Of a DNA stretch of 46,547 nt, positions 3 to 38,665 are shown piece after piece. Made by a program: the position numbers and the translations under genes. This DNA is from an uncultured Chitinophagaceae bacterium (GTDB lineage Bacteria > Bacteroidota > Bacteroidia > Chitinophagales > Chitinophagaceae). The notes under the pieces were generated by a model. The model was not told where the DNA came from, made no database searches, and saw only the letters and a list, made by a program, of their open reading frames with translations. Each line of letters begins with the position of its first letter. Position 1 is the stretch's first letter. The DNA is taken from positions 1 to 46,547 of the forward strand of contig CAIVPM010000193.1 in NCBI GenBank assembly GCA_903907815.1, written 5' to 3'.

Positions 3-485
3 ATCCGACTTTCTGATAAAGATTTAAAGAAGGTTACGCAAAAGATTATAGAGCTTGGTGATAGAAAAGAAACCGTTACACAGTCAGATTTACCCTATAT
101 TATTTCCGATGTATTAGATAGTAGTTCTATCGAAGAAAAGGTGCAGGTTTTAAACTATGTACTTACTCATTCCAAAGATTTAAGACCTTCGGTTACGCTC
201 AAACTTAATCTGAATGGAGAAGTGTTTGAAGAGCATGCACAGGGTGATGGACAGTATGATGCTTTTATGAATGCGCTTAAAACGATTTATAAAAAGAAGA
301 AACTGGATTTGCCGGTTCTAACAGATTATGCCGTTCGTATTCCACCCGGCGGTAAGTCCGATGCATTGTGCGAAACCATTATTACCTGGGATATACATGG
401 CAGAGAATTTAAAACAAGAGGCCTCGATTCCGATCAGACAGTTTCGGCAATACAAGCTACTCAGAAAATGTTGAATATGATTTAA
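3..485 (+). CDS. leuA: 2-isopropylmalate synthase, C-terminal part (5' truncated by window edge)
   Basis: LeuA condenses acetyl-CoA with 2-oxoisovalerate, the first committed step of leucine synthesis. Only the last 160 residues are in the window; the frame is open from base 3. They correspond to the C-terminal regulatory domain that binds leucine, seen in the GDGQYDAFMNAL stretch and the later VRIPPGGKSDALCETIITW stretch. The catalytic TIM barrel lies upstream of the window. leuB follows on the same strand, so this is a leucine operon, but the two genes are separated by about 670 bp holding a four-helix-bundle gene and inverted repeats. The open frame upstream of the GTG at 141 shows that the gene does not start there. 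Confidence 0.9.
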   Translation: MRLSDKDLKKVTQKIIELGDRKETVTQSDLPYIISDVLDSSSIEEKVQVLNYVLTHSKDLRPSVTLKLNLNGEVFEEHAQGDGQYDAFMNALKTIYKKKKLDLPVLTDYAVRIPPGGKSDALCETIITWDIHGREFKTRGLDSDQTVSAIQATQKMLNMI

Positions 486-514
486 TACAAGGCAAAGAGG
501 CAATAGGGGAATAC

Positions 515-551
515 AAGGGACAGAGGCAACAAGGCACAAAGGCACAAAGTG
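515..551 (+). repeat. left arm of 37-bp inverted repeat around four-helix-bundle gene
   Basis: This segment is the reverse complement of 1106..1142 with 36 of 37 positions matching; the one difference is the fifth base from its left end (G here, C expected). It begins 30 bp after the leuA stop. Its content is iterated GGCACAAA/GAGGCAA words. In an mRNA running from leuA to leuB the two arms could form a long stem with the intervening gene in the loop. Confidence 0.9.
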
Positions 552-611
552 AATACAGGGAGTAGAAAATACAAGCGGTTTTTAATTTTCGGCAAAGATA
601 AAATTAGGTTT

Positions 612-1007
612 ATGAGTTCTATTAATACTTATAGGGATTTGATAGTCTGGCAGAAATCTATGACTTTTGTTACGGAAGTATACTTGATAACGAAGAGCTT
701 TCCTTCAACTGAAAATTTTGGACTGATTAGTCAAATTAGAAGAAGTGCAATTTCAATTCCCAGTAATATTGCCGAAGGATATGGCAGAAAATCTACTGGC
801 GATTACATAAGATTTCTTCAAATTGCTGTAGGTTCTTTATTTGAATTACAAACGCAAATTGAAATAGCATTTAATTTGCTTTATATAGATAAAATAATAT
901 TTGATAAATCATTAATTAAAACAAGTGAGCTTGATAGAATGCTGTTTTCTTTGATTAATAAAATAAAAGGAAACGATGCACAAAAGTTCAGAGTAAACGA
1001 ATTATAG
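612..1007 (+). CDS. four-helix-bundle protein (S23/IVP-like, TIGR02436 type)
   Basis: This 131-aa protein belongs by its motifs to the four-helix-bundle family known from ORFs inside 23S rRNA intervening sequences and from the Avd accessory protein of diversity-generating retroelements. The visible family signature is YRDLIVWQKSM at the N terminus and a central RRSAISIPSNIAEGYGR block, followed by a helical C-terminal half. I chose the ATG at 612 because the conserved YRDLIVWQ begins five residues later; an in-frame ATG at 549 would add a tail unlike the family. The gene lies between leuA and leuB, inside a near-perfect 37-bp inverted repeat. Its molecular function is unknown; family members are thought to bind nucleic acid or protein partners. 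No leucine-related role is suggested by the sequence. Confidence 0.85.
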   Translation: MSSINTYRDLIVWQKSMTFVTEVYLITKSFPSTENFGLISQIRRSAISIPSNIAEGYGRKSTGDYIRFLQIAVGSLFELQTQIEIAFNLLYIDKIIFDKSLIKTSELDRMLFSLINKIKGNDAQKFRVNEL

Positions 1008-1073
1008 AATTGATTATTAAATTTGAAAAAAGAATTCATCATAGTTTAAAAAAATAAACAAAAGAGAGCAAAT

Positions 1074-1090
1074 CACTTTGTGCCTTTGTT
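1074..1090 (+). repeat. partial direct copy of the right repeat arm
   Basis: The word CACTTTGTGCCTTTGT occurs here and again 32 bp later at the start of the right arm (1106). This shows local duplication of the repeat word on the right side of the four-helix-bundle gene. Confidence 0.7.
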
Positions 1091-1105
1091 CCTTATTTTA
1101 AATAA

Positions 1106-1142
1106 CACTTTGTGCCTTTGTGCCTTGTTGCCTCTGTGCCTT
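1106..1142 (-). repeat. right arm of 37-bp inverted repeat
   Basis: Reverse complement of 515..551 (36/37). It ends 17 bp before the leuB start codon, so a stem formed by the two arms would lie directly upstream of leuB and could affect its translation or mRNA processing. Confidence 0.9.
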
Positions 1143-1159
1143 AGTTCAAAAACCTCGAC

Positions 1160-2233
1160 ATGGCAAACAAAAACATCCTAATCGTTCCGGGAGACGGAAT
1201 TGGACAAGAAGTAACAGCAGTGGGTAAAAAAGTACTCGATAAAATAGCTGCTAAGTACAATCATCAGTTTAATTACGATGAAGCTTTAATCGGTCATGTG
1301 GCTATCGAAGCTACAGGAAATCCCCTGCCAGATGAGTCTTTGGAGAAAATGAGAAACTCCGATGCCGTTTTGTTTGGTGCCGTTGGTCACCCTAAGTATG
1401 ATAACGATCCTTCTGCCAAGGTTAGGCCCGAGCAGGGATTATTAAAGATGCGTAAAGAGCTTGGACTCTATGCCAATCTTCGTCCAATAAAATTGTTCGA
1501 TGAATTGTTGAGCGCTTCCAGCATTAAGTCCGAGATTTTAAAAGGTGCTGATATATTATTCTTCCGCGAGCTGACAGGCGATATATATTTCGGTGAAAAA
1601 GGAAGAAAGAATGATGGCGATACCGCTTATGATATTGCCGAGTATAGCCGTTACGAAGTAGAGCGTATTGCCCGCCGTGCTTTCGAGGCCGCCCGTACCA
1701 GAAGAAAGAAACTTTGTTCCGTAGATAAAGCCAATGTATTGGAAACCTCTCGACTATGGCGCGAAGTGGTGCAGAAAGTAGCTTTGGAATATCCTGATAT
1801 CGAGGTGGAACATCAGTTTGTGGATTCTACTGCCATGATGCTTATCAAAGATCCTTGTCGTTTCGATGTGGTACTTACCGCCAATCTTTTTGGCGATATT
1901 CTTACCGATGAAGCCTCTCAGATTGCAGGTTCTATGGGAATGCTTGCTTCGGCTTCTATCGGCGATGGAACAGGCGTTTACGAGCCTATTCATGGCTCTG
2001 CTCACGATATTACCGGCAAGGGTGTTGCCAATCCGTTGGCTTCTATTCTTTCGGCCGCTTTATTGCTCGATATTTCTTTCGGTTTAAAGGAAGAATCGGT
2101 AGCCATCATTACGGCGGTAGAAGGCGTATTGAAAGCAGGTTTCCGTACCCGCGATATTGCCGATGCGAGTACCCCAGCCAATATGATTTTAGGTACCGAT
2201 GCAATGGGCGAAGAAGTACTGAATAGAATCTAA
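1160..2233 (+). CDS. leuB: 3-isopropylmalate dehydrogenase
   Basis: LeuB oxidatively decarboxylates 3-isopropylmalate with NAD+ to 2-oxoisocaproate in leucine synthesis (cytoplasmic, metal-dependent homodimer). The 357 residues match the usual family length. Visible features are the N-terminal PGDGIGQEV, the substrate-loop RELTGDIYFGEKGR near residue 136, the SVDKANVLETSRLWR segment, the metal-binding NLFGDILTDEASQIAGSMG region, and GSAHDI for NAD binding near residue 280. The ATG at 1160 gives the expected N terminus. It is downstream of leuA on the same strand. No intrinsic terminator is evident after it; a structured 202-bp repeat starts 65 bp past the stop. Confidence 0.97.
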   Translation: MANKNILIVPGDGIGQEVTAVGKKVLDKIAAKYNHQFNYDEALIGHVAIEATGNPLPDESLEKMRNSDAVLFGAVGHPKYDNDPSAKVRPEQGLLKMRKELGLYANLRPIKLFDELLSASSIKSEILKGADILFFRELTGDIYFGEKGRKNDGDTAYDIAEYSRYEVERIARRAFEAARTRRKKLCSVDKANVLETSRLWREVVQKVALEYPDIEVEHQFVDSTAMMLIKDPCRFDVVLTANLFGDILTDEASQIAGSMGMLASASIGDGTGVYEPIHGSAHDITGKGVANPLASILSAALLLDISFGLKEESVAIITAVEGVLKAGFRTRDIADASTPANMILGTDAMGEEVLNRI

Positions 2234-9879: not shown

Positions 9880-10065
9880 ATTAAACCCATAATTTGCAGT
9901 AGGATTCGTAATGAAAGCTACAAACACAATAAAGACAGGGATTTGAGCAGATTTTTTAATGGAAAGCATAGTGAACTATGATAACATTAAAAAATCAAGC
10001 AAATACTTATGTTTGAAGGGTTTGGAGTTTGTAATAGAATTTCTACTGCAAATTCTGGGTTAAAT
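9880..10065. repeat. 186-bp imperfect palindrome, MITE-like
   Basis: The outer arms, about 28 bp at each end, share the core AATTTGCAGTAG in inverted orientation (9891..9902 and 10044..10055). The centre is a near-perfect hairpin: GATTTTTTAATG at 9950..9961 pairs with CATTAAAAAATC at 9985..9996, and CATAG pairs with CTATG around a TGAA tetraloop. Partial complementarity also exists between these blocks. No transposase is present. The whole unit could be a small non-autonomous mobile element or a long structured RNA. The rest of the spacer 9661..9879 shows nothing I can identify. Confidence 0.65.
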
Positions 10066-11940: not shown

Positions 11941-12431
11941 ATCGTGAATCGTGAAAATACATCGTGAGTCGTGAGGAATGCAGAATACATTGAACCACAG
12001 AGACAGGGCGACACAGTGGTGCACAGTGCTTTTCTATAATACCAATACAGAGAACAGAGAGAACCGCTAGCGGTTGGGCAGATGATAAAAATCGTCGTGA
12101 GGAATACAGAATACAATTGAACCACAGAGACACGGCGGCACAGAGGAACACTGAGGTTTTTAATACTAATACAGAGAACACGGAGAACCGCGGCGGTTTG
12201 ATACAAACAAAATGTAATAGGTAATCTATATTTAGAATAGAATACAATTAGTGAATTAGCGGATTGGCTGATTGAATACAAATACATTCAACGCAGAGAA
12301 AGGAGGGAAAGAGAATACAATTGGTGAATTAACGGATTGCTGATTAAATTCATTAATCCAATCAATTTGTCCAATTATACAAAACTGTATTCATTATCTC
12401 ATTATCAAATTGTCACATTATCTCAATAGTA
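11941..12431. repeat. mosaic of simple intergenic repeat words
   Basis: No gene is supported here. The spacer starts with iterated ATCGTGA(A/G)TC words (11941..11974). A roughly 110-bp unit containing GAACCACAGAGACA and CAATACAGAGAACA-like words then occurs twice in direct order (11961..12075 and 12091..12198). A shorter unit, GAATACAATT(A/G)GTGAATTA plus CGGATT, occurs at 12240 and 12313. CATTATCTCATTATC words precede the tryptophanase stop. The open minus-strand frames across this region consist of these repeats. Confidence 0.75.
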
Positions 12432-17306: not shown

Positions 17307-17460
17307 TTGTACTTTTCTTTTAGGAGTGGTTTATAATCTGTAGTAATGAGTGCCATTATAAGATGGAGAGTTACTAATTACTAACTTCCAACCCGATTTG
17401 CTGGTGAAGAACACCCGCACAGGCGGAAAAGTGGGGAATAAAAAGATAAGATGAAGAAAA

Positions 17461-17690
17461 CTCTTTATAATCTGTTTCAAATGCATTATAAAGTCTTTCA
17501 AAGCCTATATAATTTGTTTCAAATGCATAGTAATCTCTTTCAAACCCCTTATAATCTGTTTCAAATGCATTATAATTTGTTTCCAGACCAATATAAGCTG
17601 TTTCAAATACATTATAATCTGTTACCAGACCATTATAAACTGTTGCAAATACATTATAATCTATTACCAGACCAATATAAATTGATTAAA
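17461..17690. repeat. degenerate 21-bp-period repeat array C
   Basis: TATAA (or one-base variants) recurs at 17466, 17487, 17508, 17529, 17550, 17571, 17592, 17613, 17634, 17655 and 17676: eleven units with an exact 21-bp step. The intervening 16 bp alternate between TTTCAAATGCAT-like and TTACCAGACCA-like forms, so the array also has a loose higher-order pattern. The open plus-strand frame at 17451..17720 is a consequence of the 7-codon period and has no coding signature. Confidence 0.9.
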
Positions 17691-17790
17691 AGGAATGTTG
17701 AGGAGGATTTAGCTTTATAAAAGATAAAAAATAATATTAATACATGATTAAATAGAAAATTATGAATTCCTGATATATAAAATAGCGGAT

Positions 17791-17992
17791 ATTACTCGTC
17801 TGTTGCTACAGAATAATGGGTAATGAATAAATGAAAATTGATAATTGGGGCGTAATGACGGGAGCGATGTATTTGTCTTTGCGTTAGTGCCAGCAGGGAA
17901 TACCCTTTTTTGCCTAAGCTATTGAAATCTAAAGTTTTTTAATAAGGGCAAAAAAGGTAGGAAGAGCTGGAACGGCCGCTTGCGGAACGCCC
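17791..17992 (-). repeat. 202-bp structured intergenic repeat, copy 2 (inverted)
   Basis: The reverse complement starts GGGCGTTCC and ends CAGACGAGTAAT, as copy 1 at 2299..2500 does. Its inner stem, plus-strand arms 17904..17914 and 17947..17957 (CCTTTTTTGCC and GGCAAAAAAGG), is perfectly paired but unrelated in sequence to copy 1's inner stem. CAATTGTCAATT-type words flank it, as CAATTATCAATT words flank copy 1. The remainder of the spacer (17307..17460, 17691..17790, 17993..18102) shows no gene. Confidence 0.85.
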
Positions 17993-18102
17993 AAAATTTA
18001 ATTGACAATTGATGATGGAAAATTTATAATGAATACAAACAATACTAGAACTAAACATTTAATTTTCTTTAATGATGATTTTCTAAGATTCTTTTAAAAA
18101 TA

Positions 18103-19936: not shown

Positions 19937-20422
19937 ATGGATTTAAAACAAATTCACGAGTTAATAAAGATTGTTAACAAGAGTAATATCGGAGAAATTA
20001 GTATCGAGGACAAAGATGGTAAAGTAACCATCAAACAAAAGGAAGAACCTGCTGTTACAATTGCTCCTCAACAAGCACAAGTATATAACGTTCCTGCTGC
20101 TCATGCACCGGCTCCTGTAGCGGCGGCGGCTCCTGCTGTTTCAGCTGTAGCTCCTGCTGTACCAGAAGCAAAAGCAGATAACCTTATTACTATCAAGAGC
20201 CCAATGATTGGTACATTCTACCGTCGCTCTTCTCCAGACAAACCAAACCTGATTGAATTAGGTGGAGATGTAGCTCCTGGTGATGTAGTTTGTATCATTG
20301 AAGCGATGAAACTTTTCAATGAAATTGAAAGTGAAGTAGGTGGTAAAATTGTAAAGGTATTAGTAGAAAATGCTAGTCCTGTAGAATACGATCAACCATT
20401 GTTTTTAGTAGAGCCAGCATAA
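19937..20422 (+). CDS. accB: biotin carboxyl carrier protein of acetyl-CoA carboxylase
   Basis: AccB carries biotin between the carboxylase and transferase sites of acetyl-CoA carboxylase, the first step of fatty-acid synthesis. The 161-aa protein has a short N-terminal helical region, an Ala/Pro-rich linker (about 50-78), and a biotinyl domain with [11 protein letters not shown], in which K125 is the biotinylation site. The start ATG at 19937 gives the standard [11 protein letters not shown] terminus. accC normally follows directly; here a four-helix-bundle gene and inverted repeats intervene. Confidence 0.96.
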
Positions 20423-20427
20423 ATAGC

Positions 20428-20455
20428 AATTAGCTAATGTGCTGATCTGCTAATT
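20428..20455 (+). repeat. left arm of 28-bp inverted repeat around second four-helix-bundle gene
   Basis: It matches the reverse complement of 20933..20960 at 26 of 28 positions; the core AATTAGCTAATGTGCTGAT (19 bp) is identical. It begins 6 bp after the accB stop. Its GCTAAT/TTAGC words are unrelated to the arms at the leu locus. Confidence 0.85.
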
Positions 20456-20539
20456 AGCTAATGAATACAATAATACAGTTCTTCATTTTGGGACGTTTTG
20501 TATTCAGAATATTTTTAAGTTCATTTTAAATAGTCTGGT

Positions 20540-20902
20540 ATGCAAAACAGTATGATTGACAGGAATCCTATTCTGAAACTCACAATAGCGTTTTCGGTAA
20601 TGATTGTCAATTATTGTGAAGAACTAAGGCTTACTAACAGATATATTATTGGTAATCAGCTTACAAGATCTGGAACATCCATCGGAGCAAATTGCTTTGA
20701 GGCACAGAATGGAGAAAGTAAGGATGATTTTATACATAAGATAAAGATTGCAGCAAAAGAAGCGGATGAAACGCAATACTGGTTACTGATTTGTAAAGCT
20801 GCTGAAAACTATCCAGATTGTGAAGCTCTTTCAAATAGACTAATTGAAATTCAGAAGGTTTTAAATAAGATAATATCAAGTAGTAAAGCCGTGAATAATT
20901 AA
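20540..20902 (+). CDS. four-helix-bundle protein (S23/IVP-like), second locus
   Basis: A 120-aa all-helical protein with the family pattern: RNPILKLTIAF and EELRLTNRYIIGNQLTRSGTS up front, then SIGANCFEAQNGESKDDF at the position of the SIPSNIAEGYGR block in the leu-locus protein, then two C-terminal helices. It is divergent from that protein, so the two are not recent duplicates. It sits between accB and accC inside a 28-bp inverted repeat. The ATG at 20540 is used; a second ATG four codons on is equally plausible. No evidence links it to fatty-acid synthesis; it looks like an inserted cassette. Confidence 0.85.
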   Translation: MQNSMIDRNPILKLTIAFSVMIVNYCEELRLTNRYIIGNQLTRSGTSIGANCFEAQNGESKDDFIHKIKIAAKEADETQYWLLICKAAENYPDCEALSNRLIEIQKVLNKIISSSKAVNN

Positions 20903-20932
20903 TTTTATAACAAGCTAAGTGTATTGGTGTTC

Positions 20933-20960
20933 AATTAGTACATCAGCACATTAGCTAATT
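20933..20960 (-). repeat. right arm of 28-bp inverted repeat
   Basis: Reverse complement of 20428..20455 (26/28). It ends 16 bp before the accC start, and the AGCTAATT word continues to about 20968, so a stem would end almost at the accC start region, the same geometry as at leuB. Confidence 0.85.
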
Positions 20961-20976
20961 AGCTAATTAAAAAGTT

Positions 20977-22317
20977 ATGTTTAAAAAGATATTGATTGCA
21001 AACCGTGGAGAAATTGCTTTACGTGTTATTCGTACCTGTAGAGAAATGGGTATTAAAACCGTAGCTGTTTATTCTACCGCAGATAAAGATAGTTTGCACG
21101 TACGTTTTGCCGATGAGGCAGTTTGTATTGGTAAACCTGCCAGTAGCGAATCATACTTATCTATTCCTAATATTATGGCCGCAGCAGAGATTACCAATGC
21201 TGATGCTATACATCCCGGTTATGGATTTCTGGCAGAAAATGCTAAGTTCTCTCAGATTTGTGCTGATCATGGTATTAAGTTTATCGGGCCTACTCCTGAG
21301 ATGATCAATGCTATGGGAGATAAGATTACCGCTAAAGAAACCATGATTAAAGCGGGTGTACCTACTATTCCTGGTAGTGCAGGATTATTAAATAGTTTGG
21401 AAGAAGCTATTGATTTAGCAAAGAATCTGGTAGGCTATCCTGTAATATTAAAAGCTACAGCAGGTGGTGGTGGAAAGGGTATGAGAGTAGTATGGGAAGA
21501 AAGCGAAATGGAGCGTGCCTACAATACTGCTAAAGCGGAAGCTGGTGCAGCATTTAAGAATGATGGCATCTACATGGAGAAATTTGTGGAAGAACCTCGT
21601 CATATAGAGATTCAGATTGCTGGAGATCAGTATGGTACTGTATGTCACTTAAGTGAAAGAGATTGCTCTATTCAAAGAAGACATCAGAAGCTGGTTGAAG
21701 AATCTCCTTCTCCTTTCATGACTGATGATTTAAGACAAAAAATGGGTGAAGCTGCTATTAAAGCTGCTTCTGCAATCAACTACGAAAGCGTTGGTACCAT
21801 TGAGTTCTTAGTTGATAAACACCGCAACTTCTACTTCATGGAAATGAATACCCGTATTCAGGTAGAACATTGCGTAACAGAAGAAGTAATTAGTTTCGAT
21901 CTGATTAAAGAACAAATAAAGATTGCATTGGGTGAGCGACTTTCTGGTATGAATCACCTTCCTAAGATGCATGCTATTGAATGTAGAATTAATGCAGAAG
22001 ATCCATATAACGACTTTAGACCTTCTCCAGGAAAAATCACTACGCTTCATACGCCGGGTGGTCATGGAGTAAGAGTAGATAGTCATGTATATGCAGGATA
22101 CGTTATTCCGCCTTATTACGACAGTATGATAGGAAAGCTGATAACTGTTGCACAAACAAGAGAAGAGGCCATTAATACTATGTATAGAGCCCTTAGCGAG
22201 TATGTGATAGAAGGTGTGAAGACAACCATTCCTTTCCATCTTCAGTTAATGAAAAATGAAGACTTCATTGCGGGTAACTTTAATACGAAGTTCCTTGAAG
22301 GATTTACAATGAAATAA
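20977..22317 (+). CDS. accC: biotin carboxylase subunit of acetyl-CoA carboxylase
   Basis: AccC carboxylates biotin on AccB using ATP and bicarbonate. The 446-aa product has the family length and order: N-terminal biotin-carboxylase domain ([20 protein letters not shown]), ATP-grasp domain with [10 protein letters not shown] (163-172), [19 protein letters not shown] (224-242), the catalytic [10 protein letters not shown] (289-298), and a C-terminal domain with PSPGKI. It continues the accB unit and ends 31 bp before a strong bidirectional terminator. Confidence 0.97.
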
Positions 22318-37993: not shown

Positions 37994-38215
37994 CTTTCCG
38001 TACTATGGAGAAACCTTTCCCTAATACGGGGAATTCCATCCGTCCTCGGGAATATGTTTTCCGCTTTATGGGCAATACTTTCCGCCCTCGGGGAGACCTT
38101 TTCCGTACTAGGGCAGACCCTTTCCGCCCTCGGGGAGATGCTTTCCGTCATCGGGGAGACCTTTTCCATCGTCGGGAATATGTTTTCCGCCATGGAGTAG
38201 ATGTTTTCCGTCGGC
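37994..38215. repeat. degenerate 21-bp-period repeat array D
   Basis: (T/A)TCC anchors occur at 37996, 38017, 38038, 38059, 38080, 38101, 38122, 38143, 38164, 38185 and 38206: eleven units with an exact 21-bp step. Typical units read TTTCCGCCCTCGGGGAGA with variants; GTACTA and CATCGG forms alternate. It is noticeably richer in G+C than its surroundings. The small open frames on both strands here are by-products of the 7-codon period. The rest of the 1-kb spacer (37668..37993 and 38216..38665) contains nothing that I can support. Confidence 0.92.
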
Positions 38216-38665
38216 GAAAACCCTTATCCCTATTGAGTTTTTACTTATTCAGCTAATTTCTATATTATAAAATGTAAGTAACAACCTTTTACCGATTTGT
38301 ATGAAATATTGCTGCAAAACGGTTTATATTATCTATCAAACATTATTAAATACAAGTAGGATTGCAATTGTGTAAAAACTAGCATCCAGAATAATATTAT
38401 TGAGATAACAGTATCCACACAGAATAATATATAGTTTCGGGCTGTTATTAATACTTTAAAACCTTCCATTTAAAAGCATCTTTTTGTTGAGTAAAGTCAT
38501 CTTGTTTAAAATAAGAACTATTCTTAACAAGGAAATATTGAAACACAGAAGTGCTAAAATTTTAATTCCGTTGAACGTGTTTTAAAAGTAGTTAACAGAA
38601 TTTTGGTAGCAAACAGTAAACTATTTAGTAAATTTGAATCGTTAGTTATATACAAAATCTATACA

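Follow-up and report, generated by a model that had tools for sequence, protein, structure and literature searches.

A four-helix-bundle gene between accB and accC lies within inverted arrays of a dispersed 8-nt word: a candidate REPtron-like repeat system

The STRR of cyanobacteria are heptamer tandem repeats. To our knowledge, neither a maker nor a reader is known for the heptamer repeats of cyanobacteria, Xanthomonas, Beggiatoaceae and Bacteroidota. A second puzzle is the family of small four-helix-bundle (4HB) proteins covered by PF05635 and TIGR02436, a family also called S23, IVP or 23S rRNA-intervening sequence protein; its structures have been available for about 20 years, yet we know of no function for it. 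On the repeat side, GGGNATC heptamers were described by Rehm et al. 2015 (PMC4692102) in Xanthomonas (GGGAATC) and Nostoc (GGGGA(C/T)T). They prefer four units, are few between divergent genes, form inverted pairs, and are placed after stops and, inverted, before starts; no function was found for them (PMC4692102). TAACTGA repeats have been reported in Beggiatoaceae, Cyanobacteria and some Bacteroidetes (MacGregor 2015, PMC4679880). On the protein side, XCC0516 (2gsc) is described as a homopentamer (PMC4990558), and it belongs to Xanthomonas campestris, the same species as the GGGAATC study. A literature search, subscription journals excepted, found no paper linking a 4HB protein with heptamer repeats, and a search of plasmids and phages with the XCC0516 domain gave no Xanthomonas match.

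The window analysed here, 46,547 nucleotides from an uncultured Chitinophagaceae bacterium (GCA_903907815.1, contig CAIVPM010000193.1), carries 4HB genes at an acc and a leu locus, with the following features.

19937..20422, + strand: accB (biotin carboxyl carrier protein; Pfam PF00364), upstream operon gene
20424..20469, + strand: left arm of the acc locus, tandem 8-nt words AATTAGCT AATGTGCT GATCTGCT AATTAGCT, then the terminal slot AATGAATACA
20540..20902, + strand: 4HB gene of the acc locus, 120 aa (PF05635 / TIGR02436)
20920..20925, - strand: inner AATACA motif of the right acc arm (TGTATT on the + strand)
20933..20969, - strand: right arm of the acc locus, inverted copies of the left-arm words, 26/28 match to the left arm
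20977..22317, + strand: accC (biotin carboxylase; Pfam PF02786, PF00289, PF02785), downstream operon gene
515..551, + strand: left arm of the leu locus, AAGGCACA-type words, then AATACA at 552-557 (arm and motif 515..557)
about 612 (start) to 1007 (stop), + strand: 4HB gene of the leu locus (PF05635, 133 bits)
1106..1142, - strand: right arm of the leu locus, inverted AAGGCACA words, 36/37 match to the left arm

The accB gene, the 4HB ORF and accC are all on the + strand, and the left acc arm starts 1 nt 3' of the accB stop codon. The unit of the acc words is AATNNGCT, with two positions free. Positions 20428-20455 agree with the reverse complement of 20933-20960 at 26 of 28, and the best local alignment of the flanks (20424-20455 with 20933-20965) scores 48, against a mean of 15.9 and a maximum of 34 in 2,000 dinucleotide-shuffled flank pairs. 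An earlier note on this DNA had described such arms around a 4HB family member, and both are real; the right arm, taken to 20960, also stops 16 bp before the accC start, as it had stated. At the leu locus the arms align with a score of 69 (shuffle maximum, 32), and the right arm ends 17 bp before the next gene start. The two loci were said to have a common geometry. The design is indeed the same, but the core left arm at leu begins about 29 bp past the upstream stop and not directly after it, word-like sequence being present already from the stop. The words themselves are unrelated between the two loci (AATTAGCT/AATGTGCT at acc, AAGGCACA at leu), again in agreement with the note. Window positions 3-1515, containing the leu locus, are 95% identical to a sister species (G001:C208), whereas other stretches of the window mostly reach 67-85%, hinting that the leu region may have been exchanged recently with the sister species.

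The acc 4HB protein matches PF05635 with 71.3 bits (cut-off 33.8) and TIGR02436 with 89.2 bits (cut-off 24). Its AlphaFold2 model (mean pLDDT 95) has a four-helix fold, and its best PDB matches, 2rld (in first place) and 2gsc, contain five chains each. More distantly, the structure is related to that of Avd from diversity-generating retroelements (Foldseek TM about 0.68, sequence identity about 10%), and the leu protein gives a weak match to bAvd. PF05635 alone was found in a domain search of the acc protein, which returned no HuH/Y1 tyrosine transposase and no known catalytic domain. Across very divergent 4HB members (alignment A3), three polar residues, Q40, E54 and E77 in the numbering of the window's protein, are invariant and may possibly form an active or ligand site. 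The window's genome contains 12 4HB genes.

Inverted arms are common around genes of this family. At 157 4HB loci, taken from 43 genomes within the same family and order, the left flank was aligned with the reverse-complemented right flank. The median arm score is 35, vs 18 for flanks swapped between genomes; 82% of the loci exceed the 95th percentile of the swapped flanks and 61% the 99th. A score of 28 or more is reached by 76% of the 157 loci; among 954 ordinary ORFs taken from four genomes, 0.4-0.9% reach it. This upholds the view that the repeated architecture is not due to chance. The genome-wide comparison with shuffled flanks proposed in the earlier note gave the same picture: at 78% of the 157 loci the true flanks outscored each of 40 dinucleotide shuffles. 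The suspected preference for same-strand intercistronic sites was found as well (in a subset of 80 loci, 61 lie between two genes of their own strand). Chance or composition as the source of the arms is ruled out by the swapped flanks, the dinucleotide shuffles and the ordinary-gene controls. Direct repeats were considered in place of inverted ones, and just 11% of the loci pass the swapped 99th percentile in direct orientation.

The architecture extends across phyla. A further 93 loci, drawn from plasmids of cyanobacteria and from named genomes across many phyla, show the same arms more weakly than the related genomes do (62% above the 95th percentile, 34% above the 99th). Examples come from Nostoc (GGGAACA words), Anabaena and Pseudanabaena (between cas6 and cas4), an acidobacterium, planctomycetes, clostridia and a nitrospirota genome. 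The 4HB loci of cyanobacterial plasmids are mixed: arms are strong at 5 of 13 (above the 99th percentile of swapped flanks), weak at two (29-30) and lacking at the rest. Some cyanobacterial 4HB genes are located within CRISPR operons (L259, L268, L269), twice as cas6-4HB-cas4 and once as cas10-4HB-cmr3, and two of these three loci have strong inverted heptamer arms.

The arms are tandem arrays of short words. The best period is 7 nt in 81 of 113 and 8 nt in 23 (together 104 of 113, against a flat null), acc and leu being among the 8-nt loci; the strong cross-phylum arms have period 7 in 26 of 32 and period 8 in 4. Arm length has a median of 30 nt, about four words, and arrays comprise about 4-5 tandem copies. 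Because the acc word has 8 nt and is not G-rich, quadruplexes are not the common denominator.

The same words are dispersed throughout the genome. Measured on genome stretches with the 4HB loci masked, each arm has 20.6 matches per Mb in its own genome vs 0-0.9 per Mb in three relatives, the reversed control giving 1.6. The 18-mer ATTAGCTAATTAGCTAAT, with up to two mismatches, has 126 sites in the window's genome and 0 in the reversed control. Solo copies of the acc type form a discrete, sharp-ended element, YTAATTAGCTAATTAGCTRATGTGCTAATGTGCTAATGAATACA, about 43 bp long; it has 39 listed matches, some of them overlapping, and the left acc arm is one of these listed copies. AATACA closes the array in this genus and ends most solo copies in the window's genome. 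The commonest count before it, where the unit is informative, is four words, a noisy figure, as low-information words are unreliable and their reversed-unit controls score equally high. Solo arrays are found close to stop codons, 24 of them in codirectional gaps, 11 in convergent and none in divergent ones (0/35; background divergent 13/80), and they run 11 times sense and 13 times antisense to transcription, with no orientation preference. The pattern AAGTNNT has 41 sites in the window's genome, where no cognate gene was identified.

Other repeats are also present in the window. An unrelated dispersed, hairpin-like element of about 130 bp, TTTGCGTTAGTGCCAGCAGGGAATATCC...GGAACGCCC, often beside word arrays, occurs at 2295-2430 and 17866-17997, at L099:11803-11939 and in several copies in the sister genome G001. 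The stretch 9882-10064 (about 183 bp) has three copies in the same sister genome, with 81-85% identity. A 127-bp direct repeat of 1.9 copies at 11968-12198 contains GTCGTGAGGAATACA and other word modules, and has copies in the sister genome. At 17451-17720 and 38005-38256 there are ORF-like tracts of 21/42/63-bp tandem repeats, a period that is a multiple of 3 and 7; these are possibly over-expanded word arrays.

Membership of the S23/IVP family raises the question of an RNA element like the rRNA intervening sequences (IVSs), in which the arms would pair in the polycistronic mRNA, with the 4HB gene in the loop of the stem, and RNase III would excise or process it. The acc locus shares with the 23S rRNA IVSs the complementary arms around a PF05635 gene, an arrangement that in rRNA is excised by RNase III (PMC4990558); in addition, 4HB loci lie inside operons, and where sites are orthologous the two arms have changed together. 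The 23S rRNA IVSs are located in an rRNA helix, whereas the acc element occupies the accB-accC spacer; an Rfam scan of the window gave no match, and the window contains no rRNA. Arm mismatches read as + strand RNA show no excess of wobble pairs (G.U 103 vs A.C 97, p = 0.72, 55 loci), so that an RNA stem under selection left no signal in this test. The presence of solo arrays in both orientations is unexplained by a stem requirement, and neither the match between word and protein clade nor the genome-wide dispersal would be predicted. We regard the IVS-like reading as quite unlikely. The wobble result, the lack of an orientation bias in solo arrays and the avoidance of divergent gaps together favour a DNA-level element over an RNA stem, and RNA binding by the protein may occur too.

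The arm word is predicted by protein clade, which supports the tie between protein and repeats proposed earlier. Among 119 loci with arms, pairs were drawn from different genomes and non-homologous sites, and a word was counted as shared at a score of 28 or more. Sharing was 53% at a protein similarity of 0.6 and above (the 38 closest pairs), 20% at 0.5-0.6, 8% for pairs at 0.4-0.5 and about 1.8% for those below 0.3. When the wrong strand was compared, it was 0% for the closest pairs. At a similarity of 0.4 or more, 14.8% of pairs share a word vs a maximum of 6.3% when loci were permuted. Over all pairs, protein and word are weakly rank-correlated (0.07, Mantel p 0.02); the signal comes from the close pairs, and the relationship is clear only above a similarity of about 0.4. 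Across phyla, with permutation inside phyla, 5.9% of pairs share a word vs a maximum of 5.2% in 2,000 permutations. One 4HB clade is accompanied by words of the form AGCNNTN in Cyanobacteria, Planctomycetota, Acidobacteriota and Bacteroidota alike; the leu-type AAGGCACA word is found with relatives in Bacteroidota and a Nitrospirota genome. All 10 genomes that carry the argC-argD 4HB clade have AAGTNNT arrays, vs 16 of 51 others (Fisher 6e-5). Transfer of whole cassettes, arms and gene together, explains part of this match, which to that extent is no proof of recognition. The earlier suggestion that the protein recognises an inverted structure whatever its sequence is rejected because the word tracks the protein clade, across genera and phyla and strand-specifically.

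Arrays and 4HB genes also tend to be present together. De novo searches found period-7/8 arrays in three 4HB-bearing genomes, at densities of 131, 72 and 72 per Mb, and 0 in 379 kb of a 4HB-less relative; nine more 4HB-less genomes gave 0 arrays in about 164 kb, and ten more 4HB-bearing ones gave 21 in 200 kb. The pooled figures are 0 in 544 kb from ten 4HB-less genomes vs about 110 in 1.24 Mb from 4HB-bearing ones, and the comparison by genome, with arrays sampled in 0 of 10 vs 9 of 13, is safer because array counts are not independent across sites. Genome G048 has no PF05635 / TIGR02436 match, yet it carries 30 sites of the heptamer pattern TGAATNN, although it scored 0 in the array sampling (20 kb sampled, no array). 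These sites indicate that arrays can exist or persist without a 4HB gene, and they may reflect a lost partner, a missed gene or another reader.

Orthologous sites occur both empty and occupied. The accB-accC spacer is plain, of 20-65 bp, in five relatives, vs 554 bp in the window and 471 bp in the sister species, where the 4HB gene is 59% identical to the window's and AATNNGAT words stand on both sides. The gene is missing from the spacers of G004, which is 226 bp long and has the window's words, and of G006, which is 104 bp long and has inverted AATNNG words. From these gene-less spacers and that of the sister species it follows that arms can exist without the gene and that both arms change together. 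At the orthologous argC-argD site in 13 genera, arms match their own partner with an average of 35.8 vs 22.6 across species (p = 5e-5), the words running through AAGT, ACGT, ACGC, AAGC and AGGC forms. Another spacer, of about 200 bp in the window's genome, is filled with two word modules; its counterpart in the sister species measures about 35 bp.

These sites bear on the origin of the arms. The earlier note had offered, as a further possibility, cassettes inserting into operon spacers made of local repeat words. Such spacers are not what is found: the words are genome-wide dispersed families, they are absent from the sampled 4HB-less genomes, and the accB-accC gap is plain in several relatives, so the arms belong to the element and not to the site. 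A related scheme, in which arrays arise at spacers by polymerase slippage or gene conversion and 4HB genes insert there as passengers, is very improbable in our judgement. Many bacteria show an over-representation of heptameric repeats, for which slippage has been proposed, as quoted in PMC4692102, and inverted arms can homogenise each other. The scheme, however, would not predict clade-specific words common to unrelated sites across genera and phyla, dispersed copies of fixed length with sharp ends, or the absence of arrays from the sampled 4HB-less genomes, and such arms flank fewer than 1% of ordinary genes.

A regulatory role without mobility was also weighed. The 4HB ring would bind word arrays in transcripts or DNA, in the manner of TRAP, and control its own operon together with a regulon of solo arrays. 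Pentameric relatives (2rld, 2gsc), the action of the distant structural relative Avd in an RNA-protein complex, and the position of arrays near stop codons here and near starts and stops, mostly transcribed, in the literature (PMC4692102) are consistent with it. The neighbouring genes, however, have no common function (acc, leu, arg, cas and others), solo arrays show no orientation bias in the window's genome, and arrays at the same site differ between sister species. This makes regulation alone an unlikely explanation.

The reading we prefer, with a probability of roughly 0.6, is that the acc locus represents one copy of a two-part, REPtron-like repeat system. One part would be the small 4HB protein, whose structurally solved relatives form rings of five subunits, and the other its cognate word of 7 or 8 nt, repeated in tandem about 4-5 times per array. 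Two such arrays, inverted, surround the gene, and solo or gene-less inverted arrays are present elsewhere in the genome. The pairing of protein and word is well supported by the sequence comparisons, and from it we infer that the protein binds its own word array directly, perhaps with one word per ring subunit, a guess from the about 4-5 words per array that is numerology so far. Binding would maintain or spread the arrays as selfish or domesticated repeats, like TnpA-REP (RAYT) with REP. As there is no recognisable transposase, the catalytic step would have to be supplied by the host or by some activity of the 4HB protein that has escaped recognition, and intercistronic stop-to-start gaps would serve as tolerated landing places.

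The results suggest that the 4HB protein and the long-unexplained heptamer repeats are two halves of one system. More tentatively, the 4HB/S23 family could be the missing protein partner of bacterial heptamer repeats generally, in Bacteroidota, Cyanobacteria, Acidobacteriota, Planctomycetota, Firmicutes and others, its pentameric ring reading a tandem 7/8-nt word and propagating arrays by a mechanism unlike that of known transposases. The pairing merges two old puzzles, the heptamer repeats and the function of S23/IVP, into one testable question. Should every branch of the family read a word of its own, small ring proteins and short DNA words would together make up a natural code, and such pairs would account for a considerable part of the spacer sequence of many genomes.

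Among the known systems, Avd/bAvd of diversity-generating retroelements (PDB 4dwl, 8ub7), compared by fold alone, has a related fold and a five-chain entry; neither a reverse transcriptase nor variable/template repeats were noted at the 4HB loci. The 23S rRNA intervening sequences (S23/IVP; PMC4990558) have the same protein family and a gene within complementary arms; they differ in that here the sites are protein-operon spacers, the arms are tandem word arrays and there is no strand-specific pairing signal. Compared with a classical MITE or transposon, the TTAGC element has sharp ends and spacers occur occupied and empty, and no target-site duplication was established. The REPtron (TnpA-REP/RAYT with REP/REPIN; PMC8266576, PMC2817692, PMC3116915) likewise consists of a gene bracketed by an inverted dispersed intergenic repeat, with gene-less solo and paired copies elsewhere and protein-repeat co-evolution, which appears here as a correlation between sequences. 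The REPtron has a HuH transposase and a tagged palindrome, in contrast to the PF05635 four-helix bundle and the tandem array of 7/8-nt words found here; since the HuH transposase is absent, the system may be REPtron-like in its working but is no REPtron. For the heptamer repeats of the GGGAATC and TAACTGA type, no cognate 4HB protein is named in PMC4692102 or PMC4679880. Their unit is 7 nt, vs 7 nt at 81 and 8 nt at 23 of 113 loci here. In other respects they resemble the arrays described here: they are mostly intergenic, scarce between divergent genes and preferably of four units, they form inverted pairs, and they stand behind stops or, when inverted, ahead of starts; the solo arrays of the window's genome are themselves intergenic, scarce between divergent genes and about four units long.
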